A DNA stretch of 64,000 nt from assembly GCF_002803095.1 (NCBI RefSeq), contig NZ_PGLR01000004.1:124001-188000 (forward strand), in the 5' to 3' direction. Source of the stretch: Pseudomonas sp. ZH-FAD (GTDB taxonomy: Bacteria > Pseudomonadota > Gammaproteobacteria > Pseudomonadales > Pseudomonadaceae). This document shows, one piece after another, positions 11,196-18,761 of this stretch. Each line of letters opens with the position of its first letter. The stretch's first letter is position 1. A program made the position numbers and the translations under genes. The notes under the pieces were generated by a model. It was not told the origin of the DNA and did no database searches. It worked only from the letters and a program-made list of their open reading frames with translations.

Positions 11196-12425
11196 ATGTC
11201 GAATGCTTCCTCGTCCTCCTCGAATTCCTCCCGTCAATGGCTGATTGGCCTGACGTTGCTCGCCGTACTGCTTCTGCTGCTGTGGTGGTTCTGGCCGAGC
11301 AAGCCAGAAAGCCAGCAGATGGGCCGTGGCCGTTTCGGTGACATGGGGCCGGTGCCGGTGCGCGTGGCCGAGGTCAAGCAGGGCGAGTTCGCCATCGAGC
11401 TCAAGGCGCTTGGCACGGTAACTTCCTACAACACGGTCAACGTACGCTCGCGAGTCGACGGTGAGCTGGTCAAGGTGCTGTTCGAGGAGGGCCAGCAGGT
11501 CAAGGCTGGCGACCTGTTGGCGGTGATCGATCCACGTCCTTATCAGGTGGCCTTGCAGCAGGCGCAGGGGGCGCTGCAGGAAAACCAGGCGCAACTGAAG
11601 AACGCCGAGCTGGACCTGCAGCGCTACAAGGGGCTGTACGACGAAGACAGCATCGCCAAACAGACCCTGGACACCCAGCAGGCGCTGGTCAATCAGTACC
11701 GTGGCAGTCTGCAGAGCAACCAGGCCGACGTCGCCACGGCCAAGCTCAACCTCGACTTCACCCAGATTCGCGCGCCCATCGACGGTCGCCTCGGTCTGCG
11801 TCAGCTGGATATCGGCAACCTGGTCAGCAGTGGCGATACCACGCCTCTGGTGGTGATTACCCAGGCCGATCCGATTGCGGTGATCTTCACCATCCCCGAG
11901 GGCGATCTGCCAGCCGTGCTGCAGCGCCGCCGCGACGGCACGATCCTGGCCGTCGAGGCCTGGGACCGTGGTGAACGCCTGAAACTGGCCGAGGGCGTGC
12001 TGGAAAGCCTGGACAACCAGATCGACACCACCACCGGTACGGTCAAGCTCAAGGCGCGCTTCGACAACGCCGAGCAGATGCTCTTCCCCAATCAGTTCGT
12101 CAACGTGCGTCTGCGCGTTGAAACCCGTGAGGCCGCCACCATCATTCCGTCCGCTGCGGTGCAGTTCGGCACCCAGGGTACCTTCGTCTATGTCGTGGGT
12201 GACGATAACAAGGTAAGCATCCGTCAGGTCACCATCGCTGCCAGCGACGCTGAACGCAGCATGGTCAACGAGGGCGTGCAGCAGGGTGAGCGGCTGGTCA
12301 TGGAAGGTACCGATCGTCTGCGTGACGGTAGCGAGGTGGAGGTAGTCGACCCCACTGCCGTGCAGGAATCCGAAAATGAACGGCAGGGTGAGCCTGGCCA
12401 GGCCGCGGCACGGAACGACGCATGA
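11196..12425 (+). CDS. muxA: RND efflux periplasmic adaptor MuxA (MdtA-like)
   Basis: A 409-residue membrane fusion protein. After a Ser-rich cytoplasmic N terminus, one transmembrane anchor lies at about residues 14-35 ([19 protein letters not shown]), then the barrel-sandwich/lipoyl domain ([38 protein letters not shown]), an alpha-hairpin between its halves, and a beta-barrel plus membrane-proximal domain. It links the MuxB/MuxC pump to OpmB. I use the ATG at 11196; a GTG at 11151 in the same frame is possible but has no visible ribosome site. Its stop overlaps the muxB start. Confidence 0.92.
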
Positions 12426-15400
12426 ACATCTCCCGCCCCTTCATCCTGCGGCCGGTCGCCACCACGCTGTTGATGGTGGCGATCTTCCTCAGCGGTCTGA
12501 TCGCCTATCGCCTGCTGCCGGTGTCGGCGCTGCCGGAAGTCGATTACCCGACCATCCGTGTGCTGACCTTATATCCAGGCGCCAGTCCGGATGTGATGAC
12601 CAGTGCCGTGACGGCGCCGCTGGAGCGCCAGTTCGGGCAGATGGCCGGGCTCAAGCAGATGTCCTCGACCAGTTCGGGCGGCGCCTCGGTGATCACCCTG
12701 CGCTTCAATCTGGATGTCTCCCTGGCGGTGGCCGAGCAGGAAGTGCAGGCGGCGATCAACGCGGCGAGCAATCTGCTGCCTGGCGATCTGCCGGCGCCGC
12801 CGGTGTACAACAAGGTCAACCCGGCCGATACGCCGGTGCTGACTCTGGCGGTGAGCTCAAAGACGATGCCGCTGCCGCAGGTCAACGACCTGGTCGATAC
12901 CCGTCTGGCGCAAAAGCTCGCGCAAACCAGCGGTGTCGGCCTGGTCACCCTGGCCGGCGGGCAACGTCCGGCGGTACGTATCCGCGTCAACCCGGAGGCG
13001 CTGGCGTCCTACGGCCTGAGCCTGGCCGACGTGCGCAGCCTGATCACGGCCAGCAACGTCAACCAGCCCAAGGGCAACTTCGACGGGCCCACGCGGGTTT
13101 CCCAGCTCGATGCCAACGACCAGCTGAAGTCGGTCGAGGAATATCGCGAGCTGATCCTCAGCTATCAGAATGGTGCCGCGCTACGCCTGAAGGATGTCGC
13201 CGAGATCATCGACGGCGCCGAGAACGAACGCCTGGCCGCCTGGGCCAACCGCAACCAGGCGGTACTGGTCAATGTGCAGCGTCAGCCCGGCGCCAACGTC
13301 ATCGATGTGGTCGACCGCATCCAGACCCTGCTGCCGCACCTGACCGAAGGCCTGCCGGCCAGCGTCGAGGTCAAGGTGCTCACCGACCGCACGCAGACCA
13401 TCCGCGCTGCAGTGCGCGACGTACAGCACGAACTGCTGCTGGCCATCGCCCTGGTGGTGATGGTGACCTTCCTGTTCCTGCGCAAGCTGTCGGCGACCAT
13501 CATCCCGTCCATCGTCGTGCCACTGTCGCTGATTGGCACCTTCGGCGTGATGTACCTGGCCGGTTTCACCATCAACAACCTGACGCTGATGGCGCTGACC
13601 ATCGCCACCGGTTTCGTGGTCGACGACGCCATCGTCATGCTGGAGAACATCGCCCGTCATCTGGAGGAGGGCGAGACGCCGCTCAACGCCGCACTCAAGG
13701 GCGCTCGGCAGATCGGCTTCACCCTGGTCTCGCTGACCCTGTCGCTGATTGCCGTACTGATCCCGCTGCTGTTCATGGCCGATGTGGTCGGCCGGCTGTT
13801 CCGCGAGTTCGCCATTACCCTGGCCGTGGCCATCCTGATTTCCCTGGTGGTGTCGCTGACCCTCACGCCGATGATGTGCGCGCGCTTGCTCAAGGCCGAG
13901 AAACCCGAGCAGGAAGGGCGCTTCTATCGCGTCGCCGGTGGCGCCATCGACGCCATGATCGAACGCTACGGCGTGTGGCTGCAGTGGGTGCTCAGGCATC
14001 AGCCGCTGACCCTGCTGGTGGCCGTGGCGACCCTGGGCCTGACCGTGCTGTTGTATATGGCGGTACCCAAGGGCTTCTTCCCGGTGCAGGACACCGGCGT
14101 GATCCAGGGTATTTCCGAGGCGCCGCAGTCGATCTCCTTTGCCGCCATGAGCGAGCGTCAGCAGCGCCTGGCGGATGTCATCCTGCGTGATCCGGCGGTG
14201 GCCAGTCTGTCCTCGTCGATTGGCGTGGATGGCGACAATCCGACGCTCAACAGCGGCCGTCTGCTGATCAACCTGAAAACCCACGCCGAACGCGACGTCA
14301 CCGCCAGTGAGGTAATCGAACGTCTGCGTCCTGAGCTGGCGAAGGTTCCCGGTATCGAGTTGTTCATGCAGCCGGTGCAGGACCTGACCATCGAAGATCG
14401 CATCAGCCGCACCCAGTTCCAGTTCACCCTGGAGTCGCCCGACAGTCAGTTGCTGGAAACCTGGACGCCGCGTCTGGTCGAGGCGCTGCGCGAGCAGCCG
14501 GAGCTGACCGACGTGGCCAGCGACCTGCAGAACCGCGGCTTGCAGGTGTTTCTGGATATCGATCGCGATGCCGCGGCGCGCCTGGGCATCAACGTCGGCA
14601 CTATCGACGATGCGCTGTATGACGCCTTCGGCCAGCGCCAGATCAGCACCATCTACACCCAGGCCAGCCAGTACCGCGTGGTGCTGGAGAGCCGCGATGG
14701 CGGGCGTATCGGCCTGGCCGCGTTGCGTCAGATTCATGTAGCCACCGGTGACGGCCAGCAGGTGCCGTTGTCGTCCCTGGCGCATGTCGAGGAGCGTCCG
14801 GCCAGCCTGCTGATCAACCATATCGGTCAGTTCCCGGCGGTGACCCTGTCGTTCAACCTGGCGCCTGGCGTGTCGCTGGGCGAGGCAGTGGCGGTGATCG
14901 AGCGGGTCGAGCAGGAGATCGGCCTGCCAGGCGGCATCAACACCCAGTTCCAGGGCGCTGCCGAGGCGTTCCGCGCGTCGCTGTCGTCGACCTTGCTACT
15001 GATCCTGGCGGCCATCGTCACCATGTACATCGTGCTGGGCGTGCTCTACGAGAGCTATATCCACCCGATCACCATTCTGTCCACGCTGCCTTCGGCGGGC
15101 GTCGGTGCGCTACTGGCATTGCTGCTGACCGGTAACGACCTGGGGCTGATCGCCATCATCGGCATCATCCTGCTGATTGGTATCGTCAAGAAGAACGCGA
15201 TCATGATGATCGACTTCGCCCTCGAGGCTGAGCGCAACCAGGGCATGGCGCCCGAGGCGGCGATCTACCAGGCTGCGCTGCTGCGCTTTCGGCCGATTCT
15301 GATGACCACCCTGGCGGCGTTGTTCGGCGCCATCCCGCTGATGCTCGCCTCGGGCTCCGGCGCCGAGCTGCGCCAGCCGCTGGGGCTGGTGATGGTCGGC

Positions 15401-15514
15401 GGCCTGCTGGTCAGCCAGGTGCTGACGCTGTTCACCACGCCAGTGATCTACCTGTACTTCGATCGCCTGTCGCGCCGCGTCAGCGGGCGAAGTGCGGCGG
15501 GGGTGGCGGTATGA
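12422..15514 (+). CDS. muxB: RND efflux transporter MuxB (MdtB-like)
   Basis: A 1030-residue inner membrane RND pump subunit of the HAE-1 family. It begins [18 protein letters not shown], with TM1, a large periplasmic porter domain, a TM2-6 block (residues about 335-535) holding the proton-relay motif [14 protein letters not shown], a second periplasmic loop, and a TM8-12 block containing [16 protein letters not shown]. In MuxABC-OpmB and MdtABC two different RND subunits form a heterotrimer that expels aminocoumarins, novobiocin, bile salts and similar compounds. It overlaps muxA by four bases. The stop codon lies inside an ATGA that opens the repeat-derived mini-ORF described separately. 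Confidence 0.95.
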
Positions 15515-15660
15515 GCGGCGCAGCGCTTTTGCCCCCCTTTCCCTTCGGGAGAGGGGCTGGGGGTGAGAGTATGAAGGTTGCCCGAACTTCAATCGGGGCA
15601 CCGTCGCAACCCTCATCCGGCGCTGCGCGCCACCTTCTCCCAGAGGGAGAAGGACGGTGA
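15511..15660 (+). other. 49-codon bridging mini-ORF through the repeat between muxB and muxC
   Basis: An uninterrupted frame runs from the ATG in the ATGA at the muxB stop (15511) to a TGA at 15658-15660. That TGA overlaps the GTG start of muxC (GTGA, 15657-15660). The encoded peptide is Gly/Pro/Arg-rich (starts [15 protein letters not shown]) and is simply a reading of two inverted REP-like units, so it is unlikely to be a functional protein. It may however carry ribosomes from muxB to muxC. Confidence 0.45.
15529..15655. repeat. pair of inverted REP-like units between muxB and muxC
   Basis: Two related units in opposite orientation, a BIME-like arrangement. The left unit is 15531-15570 (CCCTTCGGGAGAGGGGCTGG then GGGTGAGAGT). 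The right unit is 15610-15653 (CCCTCATCCGGCGC, then CCACCTTCTCCC, then AGAGGGAGAAGG). The right-hand end supplies the Shine-Dalgarno of muxC. Sister copies lie at 4031-4085 and 28211-28253. Confidence 0.8.
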
Positions 15661-18600
15661 ACCTCTCCGCCCCCTTTATCCGCCGTCCGGTGGCGACCTT
15701 GCTGCTGAGCCTGGCGATCATGCTGCTCGGTGGTGTCAGCTTCGGCCTGCTGCCGGTGGCGCCGCTGCCACAGATGGATTTCCCCACCATCACCGTGCAG
15801 GCCAGCCTGCCAGGAGCCAGCCCGCAGATCATGGCCTCGACCGTGGCCACGCCGTTGGAGCGCTCGCTCGGCTCGATCGCCGGGGTCAGCCAGATGAACA
15901 GCCGCAGCAGCCAGGGCAGCACGCGAATCATGATCCAGTTCGACCTGGACAAGGACATCAACACCGCCGCGCGCGAGGTCCAGGCGGCGATCAATGCGGC
16001 GCGCGAACTGCTGCCCAGCGGCATGCGCACCATGCCCAGCTACCGCAAGATCAACCCCTCGCAGGCACCGATCATGGTGCTGTCGCTGACCAGTGCCACG
16101 CTGAACAAGGGCCAGCTGTACGACGTGGCCTCGACCATCCTGGCGCAGAAACTGTCCCAGGTCGGTGGCGTGGGTGAGGTGCAGGTCGGTGGTAGTTCGC
16201 TGCCGGCAGTACGGGTTTCCCTCGAGCCACGTCTGCTCGATCACTATGGCATTGCGCTGGACGAAGTACGCCAGACCATCGCCGCCAGCAATGCCCTGCG
16301 TCCCAAGGGCGCGGTCGAGGACGAGCAGCGTCGCTGGCAGGTGCAGGCCAGCGACCAGTTGGCCAAGGCCGCCGATTACCTGCCGATGATCATCCGCTAC
16401 CAGGACGGCGCTGCCGTGCGCCTGGGCGATGTAGCCACGGTCACCGATGGTGTCGAGGACCGCTACAACAGCGGCTTCTACAACGACAAGGAAGCGGTGC
16501 TGCTGGTGATCAATCGGCAGAGCGGGGCGAACATCCTGCAGACCATCAGCGACATCCGCGCCGAGCTGCCGGCGCTACGCGAGGTGATTCCAGCCAGCGT
16601 CGAGCTGGAAGTGGCGATGGATCGCTCGCCGGTAATCCGCGCCACCCTGCACGAGGCCGAGCAGACCCTGCTGATCGCCGTGGGCCTGGTGATCCTGGTG
16701 GTGCTGGCGTTTCTCGGGCGTTGGCGCGCAGCGCTGATTCCGGCGCTGGCGGTGCCGGTGTCGCTGATCGGCAGTTTCGCCGCCATGTACCTGCTGGGGT
16801 TCTCGCTGAACAACCTGTCGTTGATGGCGCTGATTATCGCCACCGGGCTGGTGGTGGACGATGCCATTGTGGTGCTGGAGAACATCGCCCGGCACATCCA
16901 TAACGGCGAGAAGCCGATGGCGGCGGCGTTCAAAGGCACGCGCGAGGTAGGCTTCACCCTGCTGTCGATGAACCTGTCGCTGGTAGCGGTGTTCATCTCC
17001 ATCCTGTTCATGGGCGGCATCGTCGAGCGGCTGTTCCGTGAGTTCTCCATTACCCTGGCCGTGGCGGTGGTGATTTCCCTGCTGGTGTCGCTGACGCTGA
17101 CGCCGATGCTCTGCGCGCGCTGGCTCAAAGCCGAGGACGAACAACCGCGCGGCCGCCTGCAACAATGGGGCGACCGCTTGCAGACGCGGGTGCTGGCTGT
17201 CTACGGGCGTTCGCTGGACTGGGCACTGCGCCATTCGTTGCTGATGGTCATCAGCCTGCTGGCGACCATCGCGCTGAATGTCTACCTGTTCGTCAGCATT
17301 CCGAAGACCTTCATGCCGCAGCAGGACACCGGCCAACTGATCGGGTTTATCCGCGGCGACGATGGCCTGTCGTTCCAGGTCATGCAGCCGAAGATGGAGA
17401 TTTTCCGCAAGGCGGTGCTGGCCGATCCGGCGGTGGACAGCGTCGCTGGCTTCATCGGCGGTGCCGGCGGCATCAACAACGCCTTCATGATCGTGCGCCT
17501 GAAGCCCATCAGCGAGCGCAGCGTGTCATCGCAACAGGTAATCAACCGCCTGCGCGCCAGCGTGCCGAAGGTGCCCGGTGGGCGCATGTTCCTCATGCCG
17601 GATCAGGACCTGCAGATCGGTGGGCGCGAGGGGCGCAGTTCGGAGAACGAGTACATGCTGCTCTCGGGCGACCTCGATGCCCTGCGTGAGTGGCTACCCA
17701 AGGTGCGTGAAGCCCTGCGCGCGTTGCCCGAACTGACCGATATCGACGCCCGCGAGAACAGTGGTGCCCAGCAGATTCGCCTGGTGGTGGATCGCGAAGC
17801 CGCGCAGCGCCTGGGTGTGGAGATGAGCATGATCACCGCAGTGCTCAACAACGCCTTCAGTCAGCGCCAGGTTTCCACCATCTACGAAGCACTGAACCAG
17901 TACAGCGTGGTGATGGAAATCAACCCGCTCTATGCCCAGCATCCCGAGGCGCTGGACCAGATTCAGCTGATCACCGCCGATGGCGCACGGGTGCCGCTGT
18001 CCACCTTCGCCCATTGGGAACGCAGCCTGGAAGAGGACCGGGTCAACCACCAGGGCCAGTTCGCCGCCGAGAACATCGGCTTCTCCCTGGCCGAAGGGGT
18101 CAGCCTGGATCAGGCCAGCCGCGCCATCGACAATGCCGTGGCGCGGGTCGGCCTGCCCACCGAAGTGCAGGGCATGCTGGGCGGCACCGGTGCGGCCTTC
18201 CAGCAGACCCAGGGCAATCAGCCGCTGATGATCCTGCTGGCACTGGTGGTGGTGTATATCGTGTTGGGCGTGCTCTACGAGAGCTACGTACATCCGCTGA
18301 CCATCCTCTCGACCTTGCCGTCGGCCGGCGTCGGCGCCTTGCTCGCGCTGCAACTGGTAGGCATGGAGTTCAGTCTGATCTCCTTGCTGGGTCTGTTCCT
18401 GCTGATCGGTATCGTCAAGAAGAACGCCATCCTGATGGTCGATCTGGCCCTGCAACTGGAACGCGGTGAGCGCCTGAGTCCGCAGGAGTCCATCCGCCAG
18501 GCATGCCTGCTGCGTTTCCGACCGATCATGATGACCACCCTGGCTGCGATCCTTGGCGCCTTGCCGCTGGTGCTGGGCAGTGCCGAAGGTTCGGAGATGC

Positions 18601-18761
18601 GCCAACCACTGGGTATCACCATTGTCGGTGGTCTGGTGCTGAGCCAGATGCTGACCCTCTACACCACTCCGGTGGTCTACCTCTACTTCGACCGTCTGCG
18701 CCACCGCGTCAACCGCTGGCGTGGCGTGCGCACCGATGCTTCGTTGGAAAATCCGCTATGA
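15657..18761 (+). CDS. muxC: RND efflux transporter MuxC (MdtC-like)
   Basis: A 1034-residue RND subunit and partner of MuxB. It opens [22 protein letters not shown], has the TM4 relay motif [14 protein letters not shown], the TM8-12 block with [16 protein letters not shown], and the PxxLCARWLK element. The start is a GTG at 15657, fixed by homology of the following residues. GGAG at 15646-15649, seven bases upstream, is its ribosome site and belongs to the repeat element. It is separated from muxB by 142 bases of repeat DNA, whereas its own stop overlaps opmB by four bases as expected for this operon. Confidence 0.95.

Follow-up and report, generated by a model that had tools for sequence, protein, structure and literature searches.

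How can a mobile repeat settle between two genes that, in many related operons, overlap by only four nucleotides, and what then becomes of the passage of ribosomes from one gene to the other? The question is raised by the muxB/muxC junction of Pseudomonas sp. ZH-FAD, which lies in a stretch of 64,000 nucleotides (NZ_PGLR01000004.1, positions 124,001 to 188,000; hereafter 'the window', whose coordinates are used throughout). An NCBIfam profile search gives the gene order as muxA-muxB-muxC-opmB, with MuxA, MuxB and an outer-membrane channel scoring above their cut-offs. The muxB gene (12422..15514, plus strand, from its translation) belongs to the MdtB/MuxB family of RND permeases (NF007798, 1681 bits against a cut-off of 1584), whilst muxC (15657..18761, plus strand) finds its best match in NF007905, MdtC, at 1485.6 bits, below the cut-off of 1774, but passes the RND permease subfamily profile NF033617 (1255.5 bits against 1250), and is referred to here as an MdtC-like RND permease.

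An open frame bridges muxB and muxC

The end of muxB reads ...GTATGA, such that its TGA stop (15512-15514) is overlapped by the ATG of an ATGA (15511..15514, plus strand). As read from the list of open reading frames and its translation, this ATG opens a mini-ORF of 49 codons plus TGA (15511..15660, plus strand), whose stop lies in turn within the GTGA (15657..15660, plus strand) that provides the muxC start; the spacing between the two genes is 142 nt. The initial annotation had described exactly this arrangement, an ATGA opening 49 stop-free codons, a closing TGA within GTGA and two inverted repeats in between, and each element is borne out, the two hairpins reading by eye as an inverted doublet. 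A G-rich, Shine-Dalgarno (SD)-like stretch at the muxB 3' end (15495..15510, plus strand) precedes the mini-ORF, and is the site that serves muxC itself in genomes of the overlap type; ahead of muxC in the window stands GGGAGAAGG (15645..15653, plus strand), at once an arm of the second hairpin and an SD-like sequence. The other two junctions of the operon also carry ATGA overlaps (muxA/muxB, 12422..12425; muxC/opmB, 18758..18761; both plus strand), and served as controls.

The first REP-like half, comprising the hairpin CCCTTTCCCTTCGGGAGAGGG and a tail, occupies 15525..15575 on the plus strand, whilst the second, with the hairpin CCTTCTCCCAGAGGGAGAAGG, occupies 15605..15655 on the minus strand and is, as judged by eye from the sequence, inverted with respect to the first; both sets of limits are approximate, being taken from genome matches to query positions 32-85 and 115-165, respectively. 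Pieces of the spacer match 36 further places in the same genome, with the second half showing up to 98% identity to copies elsewhere, and the spacer thus has both the inverted doublet of a palindromic unit and the many genomic copies of a REP/REPIN element. The region 15505-15675 folds better than all 200 of 200 shuffled sequences (z -4.48); a search of 15301-15900 against Rfam returned no known RNA family at E 0.1, and the mini-ORF peptide of the window had no NCBIfam match.

A chance baseline was drawn from 464 kb of the window's own genome, where crude gene calls gave 175 codirectional pairs spaced by 20-600 nt: a frame leading from the upstream stop ended exactly over the next called start in 12, 10 and 5 of these pairs, for the three frames respectively. 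Taken as one case, the bridging frame of the window could be chance; it is the repeated occurrence of such frames elsewhere, in other species, that makes it telling. Of the 42 pairs whose upstream TGA is overlapped by an ATG, GTG or TTG, 4 are bridged in the mini-ORF frame, too few for a genome-wide excess of bridging ORFs to be claimed here; besides muxB/muxC, this genome holds two more REP-bearing bridges.

Inserts across the genus keep one frame relation

The comparison covered the operon in 140 of 199 genomes of the genus, the window's own included. The L081 locus (G168:C16), in which the muxB frame meets no stop at the junction and continues into muxC, reflecting either a fusion or a sequencing error, was left out, so that muxB/muxC was counted in 139 of the 140; the junctions of L138 (an insert of 136 nt) and L181 were parsed by hand. 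The two genes overlap by 4 nt in 77/139 genomes and are parted by inserts in 62/139, that of the window included, so the earlier expectation of a direct overlap in other operons holds for the former and fails for the latter.

These inserts span 31-262 nt in 28 different lengths. The initial annotation had proposed a survey of other genomes for a bias in length modulo three, and the gap proves to be 1 mod 3 in every one of the 62. Because homology fixes the frames of both muxB and muxC, this frame class cannot be produced by the start codon chosen, and the 28 lengths imply no fewer than 27 insertions or changes of length that kept it, whatever the ancestry; L040 and L049, for example, are by eye alike but for 48 extra in-frame codons in L040. 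The muxB stop is overlapped by ATG in 46 inserts and by GTG in 16, and a stop-start overlap of -4 or -1 is present at each junction, in the window as in all 62. No mini-ORF frame contains a stop ahead of the muxC overlap, save for a tandem TGA in three inserts (giving TGATG), and the remaining two frames are open in 19 and 7 of the 62. Counted per codon, stops number 3 in 2651 in the mini-ORF frame (the tandem ones), 63 in 2589 in the muxB frame and 117 in 2589 in the third.

Of the control junctions, muxA/muxB has no inserts, with a gap of -4 in 140/140 genomes, and muxC/opmB has a gap of -4 in 70/140, given the start codons chosen by our script. In 69 of the remaining 70 the muxC stop lies in an ATGA, and OpmB stands to muxC in the same frame as where the genes overlap. 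We considered muxC/opmB as a further site of insertion and rejected it, 69 of its 70 positive gaps falling in class 2 mod 3, the same as the overlap; we read these gaps as probable differences of start choice within an unbroken OpmB frame. One locus, L051, is a true exception, with a repeat-like insert and an ATGA frame that runs without a stop as far as a TAG, 4 nt ahead of the opmB ATG. In a further six (L041, L045, L049, L053, L054 and L058), REP-like halves apparently lie in the OpmB frame as N-terminal extensions, as read by eye (VGASSAREE, VGASHARET and similar).

The wider family and beyond

A further 46 loci, 4 from the genus and 42 from other genera of the family, were drawn from 106 genomes with a match, being chosen partly as best matches. 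Inserts of at least 10 nt are present in 37 of the 46, and 36 of the 37 bridge, including L181, where a 550-nt insert with several repeats is crossed by an open bridge of 185 codons, and L197, which bridges from CTG, with CTGA replacing ATGA or GTGA. The one exception in the family is L191, with a gap of 59 and a mini-ORF that stops 9 nt short of muxC. A second, named set held the best 80 of 582 loci; besides 2 duplicates, it included 4 that yielded no MuxC and 18 with gaps below 10 nt other than -4; its Pseudomonas inserts bridge in 7/7 cases, one of which repeats L084.

With duplicates removed, 104 of 105 distinct family inserts bridge, over a range of 10 to 550 nt in which those of 10-52 nt are bridged too. 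At 60 nt and above the figure is 89/89, against 31 and 9 in which the other two frames are open. Of the 9 inserts from beyond the family amongst these best 80 of 582 loci, 4 bridge; two of these are from Methylobacterium gossipiicola (886 nt) and Xenophilus aerolatus (667 nt), each without a stop and ending in an exact bridge. The five that do not are L316, L317 and L320, which have no ATG or GTG over the stop, L382, whose start is ambiguous, and L348, a plain exception. By eye, L320 (Derxia lacustris) appears to have a gene between its MdtB-like and MdtC-like genes, which we take to be OsmC-like.

Frameshifts or stops at chance level in orthologous junctions would have spoken against selection; they were sought and not found, and the counts (62/62 in the genus and 104/105 in the family, which are not independent since the species are related) strongly support the core idea of the initial annotation, that selection keeps a path for the ribosome from muxB to muxC. 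That nearly every insert is unbroken from stop to start suggests that ribosomes need to be handed across without a gap.

Origins of the inserts

Parsimony on a FastTree of MuxB plus MuxC for the genus, in which 37 of 136 inner branches are poorly supported, gives at least 29 changes in the presence of an insert and at least 38 in the identity of its cluster. Clustering of the genus inserts by blast at E 1e-6, with half-length coverage, yields 19 clusters; linkage at E 1e-3 yields 6 groups (of 30, 19, 9, 2, 1 and 1 inserts) and linkage at E 1e-2 yields 4, though chance links are possible at that level and looser linkage arises partly via shared REP halves. To speak of nineteen 'unrelated' clusters would be too strong: since they collapse to 6 or 4, the repeats are of several kinds, not nineteen.

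Peptide, Shine-Dalgarno sequences and RNA structure

In ten disjoint pairs of mini-ORFs, substitutions are spread over the three codon positions as 31/38/41, and the synonymous share, 24 of 71 single changes, shows no difference from the unconstrained expectation (p 0.135); a rough comparison of muxB in the same pairs, at fixed offsets and unaligned, gave 74 N to 230 S. We therefore rejected a function for the mini-ORF peptide, which has neither a family match nor significant codon-level constraint, and the lack of such constraint suggests that it is translation, not the peptide, that is selected.

Across the 62 insert loci, the predicted anti-SD duplex ahead of the mini-ORF has a median energy of -7.1 kcal/mol. 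Medians for the muxC start are -5.6 kcal/mol in insert loci and -4.8 kcal/mol in overlap loci, against -2.8 kcal/mol at random sites within muxC, and energies of -5 kcal/mol or below are reached by 61/62 mini-ORF starts, 52/62 muxC starts and 77/417 random sites. An SD motif thus lies inside the upstream reading frame, as in termination-reinitiation coupling. In a comparison over L039-L178 that ignores kinship, the SD at the muxB 3' end is also stronger with an insert (-7.1 kcal/mol) than with an overlap (-4.8 kcal/mol).

As to folding, 51 of 61 inserts lie at z below -2, each against 20 base-shuffles. We also asked whether the insert hides the muxC start, and saw no sign of it: in insert loci that region is slightly more open than in overlap loci (0.41 against 0.36 unpaired; p 0.04). 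With a fair SD of its own and a slightly less paired start, muxC in insert loci could therefore start independently.

Other gene pairs as comparison junctions

Two further gene pairs of the window's own genome were followed into relatives. The first, cysteine desulfurase/SufE (C46, minus strand, L225-L238; relatives, L245-L274), was named by NCBIfam and Pfam, with the desulfurase subfamily below cut-offs. It overlaps in 24 of 30 loci and has a 2-nt gap in one and inserts in five, all of which bridge (5/5); close relatives of the window's species account for four of the five. The second, a CoA-transferase family III/HpcH-HpaI pair (L275, C46:23459- of the window's own genome, and L276-L304), overlaps in 5 of 30 loci, two of the 30 yielding no second gene, and here the repeat insert of the window's own genome bridges, as the only one among the 30. 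No bridge was found in the 22 loci of this pair without a -4 overlap, where gaps fall 9/4/9 over the three classes modulo three and several hold repeat-like stretches or translations; the non-bridging L300 has GTGA at its upstream stop. The spacing of this pair is free in relatives without the overlap, and the constraint seems, therefore, to be tied to the overlap and not to the repeats.

A model for passage across the insert, and its alternatives

We propose, with a probability that we put at roughly 0.8, that the doublet is tolerated at muxB/muxC as an exact bridge from the ATGA of muxB to the xTGA of muxC, that this bridge acts as a 'relay' by reinitiation, and that it is the act of translation which is selected. 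In this model, a REP-like doublet would have come to lie at the ATGA overlap of muxB and muxC; a ribosome terminating on muxB would then restart at the overlapping ATG, helped by the SD in the muxB 3' end, translate the mini-ORF, unwinding the repeat as it does so, terminate at the TGA of GTGA and restart on muxC. The mini-ORF peptide would be a by-product, with selection acting on translating itself. The anatomy of the junction, with its frame, start, stop and SD, recurs over many lengths and several types of repeat, and from it we infer that ribosomes translate the mini-ORF, that they pass on by reinitiation, and that MuxC output depends on the mini-ORF.

Translation through the insert might, alternatively, do no more than shield a structured stretch from Rho or RNases, leaving muxC reinitiation beside the point; untranslated operon RNA is described as loading Rho (PMC12548453), and the inserts are, as given above, strongly structured (51/61 at z below -2). 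An ORF ending near or past the muxC start would serve this purpose equally, however, yet in 104 of 105 family inserts the frame terminates right at the muxC start, and even those of 10-52 nt are bridged, and we regard such shielding as improbable. We attach a rather lower likelihood to the idea that each element carries an ORF along with it and is directed to xTGA sites, in the manner in which MIRUs are described in PMC12548453; the frame would then be inherent in the element and would owe nothing to selection at the junction. The xTGA at both ends of the insert, and a loose clustering that puts most genus inserts in three groups, would fit; against this, several groups persist even at E 1e-3 and the lengths number 28, one and the same GTAGGAGCG-type motif occurs in two reading frames (as VGANLFA in L046 and as RRSELARD in L062), inserts with several repeats (L040 and L181, by eye) remain open, and the repeat-bearing gaps of the CoA-transferase/HpcH-like pair without an overlap are not open.

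That the mini-ORF might encode a functional small protein is suggested by its being always intact in the family, the early stop of L191 excepted, but the sequences are dissimilar and range from 5 to 185 codons, and both the missing NCBIfam match of the window's peptide and the near-equal substitutions over codon positions, with no significant shortage of amino-acid changes, speak against it; we hold this to be very improbable. Least probable of all is chance, by which GC-rich repeats, being poor in stops, would be open merely on account of their composition: the exact frame-on-start ends amongst spaced pairs of the window's own genome (12, 10 and 5 of 175) show how this may happen, but the other frames of the inserts are open in just 19 and 7 of 62, and frame class alone is kept in 62/62 across 28 lengths, such that we give it almost no weight.

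Returning to the proposed relay by reinitiation, the initial annotation had supposed that the two pump subunits must be made in equal amounts. This is not to be expected, as the MdtBC complex is given as MdtB2C1 (PMC7015380, there citing Kim 2010), and equal amounts of MuxB and MuxC are therefore not required; by our own reasoning, a relay that loses ribosomes would, if anything, shift the MuxB:MuxC ratio in the right direction. A bolder and, in our judgement, rather unlikely extension would be that across Proteobacteria DNA of any origin or length, once inserted at a coupled ATGA junction, survives only as a bridging mini-ORF, and that the recurrent gains at muxB/muxC are favoured because a relay in two steps lowers MuxC relative to MuxB toward B2C, with repeats serving as evolvable stoichiometry 'dials'.

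Relation to known systems

The distance that a ribosome can cover between coupled genes has so far been debated on the basis of few reporter constructs, with a need for overlap on one side and scanning over long gaps on the other. In E. coli, a 38-nt gap is reported to have cut reinitiation by 80-90% in two gene pairs and wholly in a third, and overlaps to be enriched in heteromeric complexes (both PMC10666635), whilst some reporter studies, as related in PMC12548453, found coupling over far longer gaps, up to +350 nt. At this one gene pair, evolution appears to have repeated the experiment many times over, family inserts of 10-550 nt having been kept only without a ribosome-free gap, with 1 exception in 105; the pattern speaks for overlaps being necessary in nature, and points to a route by which mobile repeats may invade operons without breaking them. 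Looking for bridging frames in genome sequences may also be an easy means of spotting coupled junctions, along with translated mini-ORFs that would otherwise stay hidden.

Among the matches listed for REP/REPIN together with coupling, small or bridging ORFs, which comprised titles and the beginnings of abstracts and few subscription papers, there was no report on Pseudomonas or mux. The Chunjie MITE is said, in the title of the paper on it, to have left an operon undisturbed.

As with the ATGA/TGATG pairs described for termination-reinitiation (PMC6728339, PMC10666635), muxB/muxC combines a -4 or -1 overlap, an SD in the upstream gene and subunits of a heteromeric complex; unlike those pairs, it has one such junction following on another, with a repeat-derived ORF as the link between them. 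The inserts resemble the REP/REPIN elements of Pseudomonas (PMC3116915, PMC3733652) in being inverted doublets with many copies per genome, mostly intergenic, but where those elements are described as mainly extragenic, with some within genes, here they make up an open frame where two coupled genes meet. Rickettsia palindromic elements (PMC10969869) are likewise palindromic repeats kept in frame, although inside proteins, whereas the frame here is a separate ORF between two genes. Closest of all comes the mycobacterial MIRU (Supply et al. 1997, as cited in PMC12548453), a repeat that inserts at start codons and whose own ORF is coupled at -4. The likeness lies in a mobile repeat at a start codon with an ORF coupled at -4 to the gene downstream, an arrangement thought to soften the effect of insertion; the muxB/muxC inserts are not a single repeat family with a built-in ORF, however, and where MIRUs are one class of repeat carrying its own ORF, several groups of repeats converge here on the same bridge.
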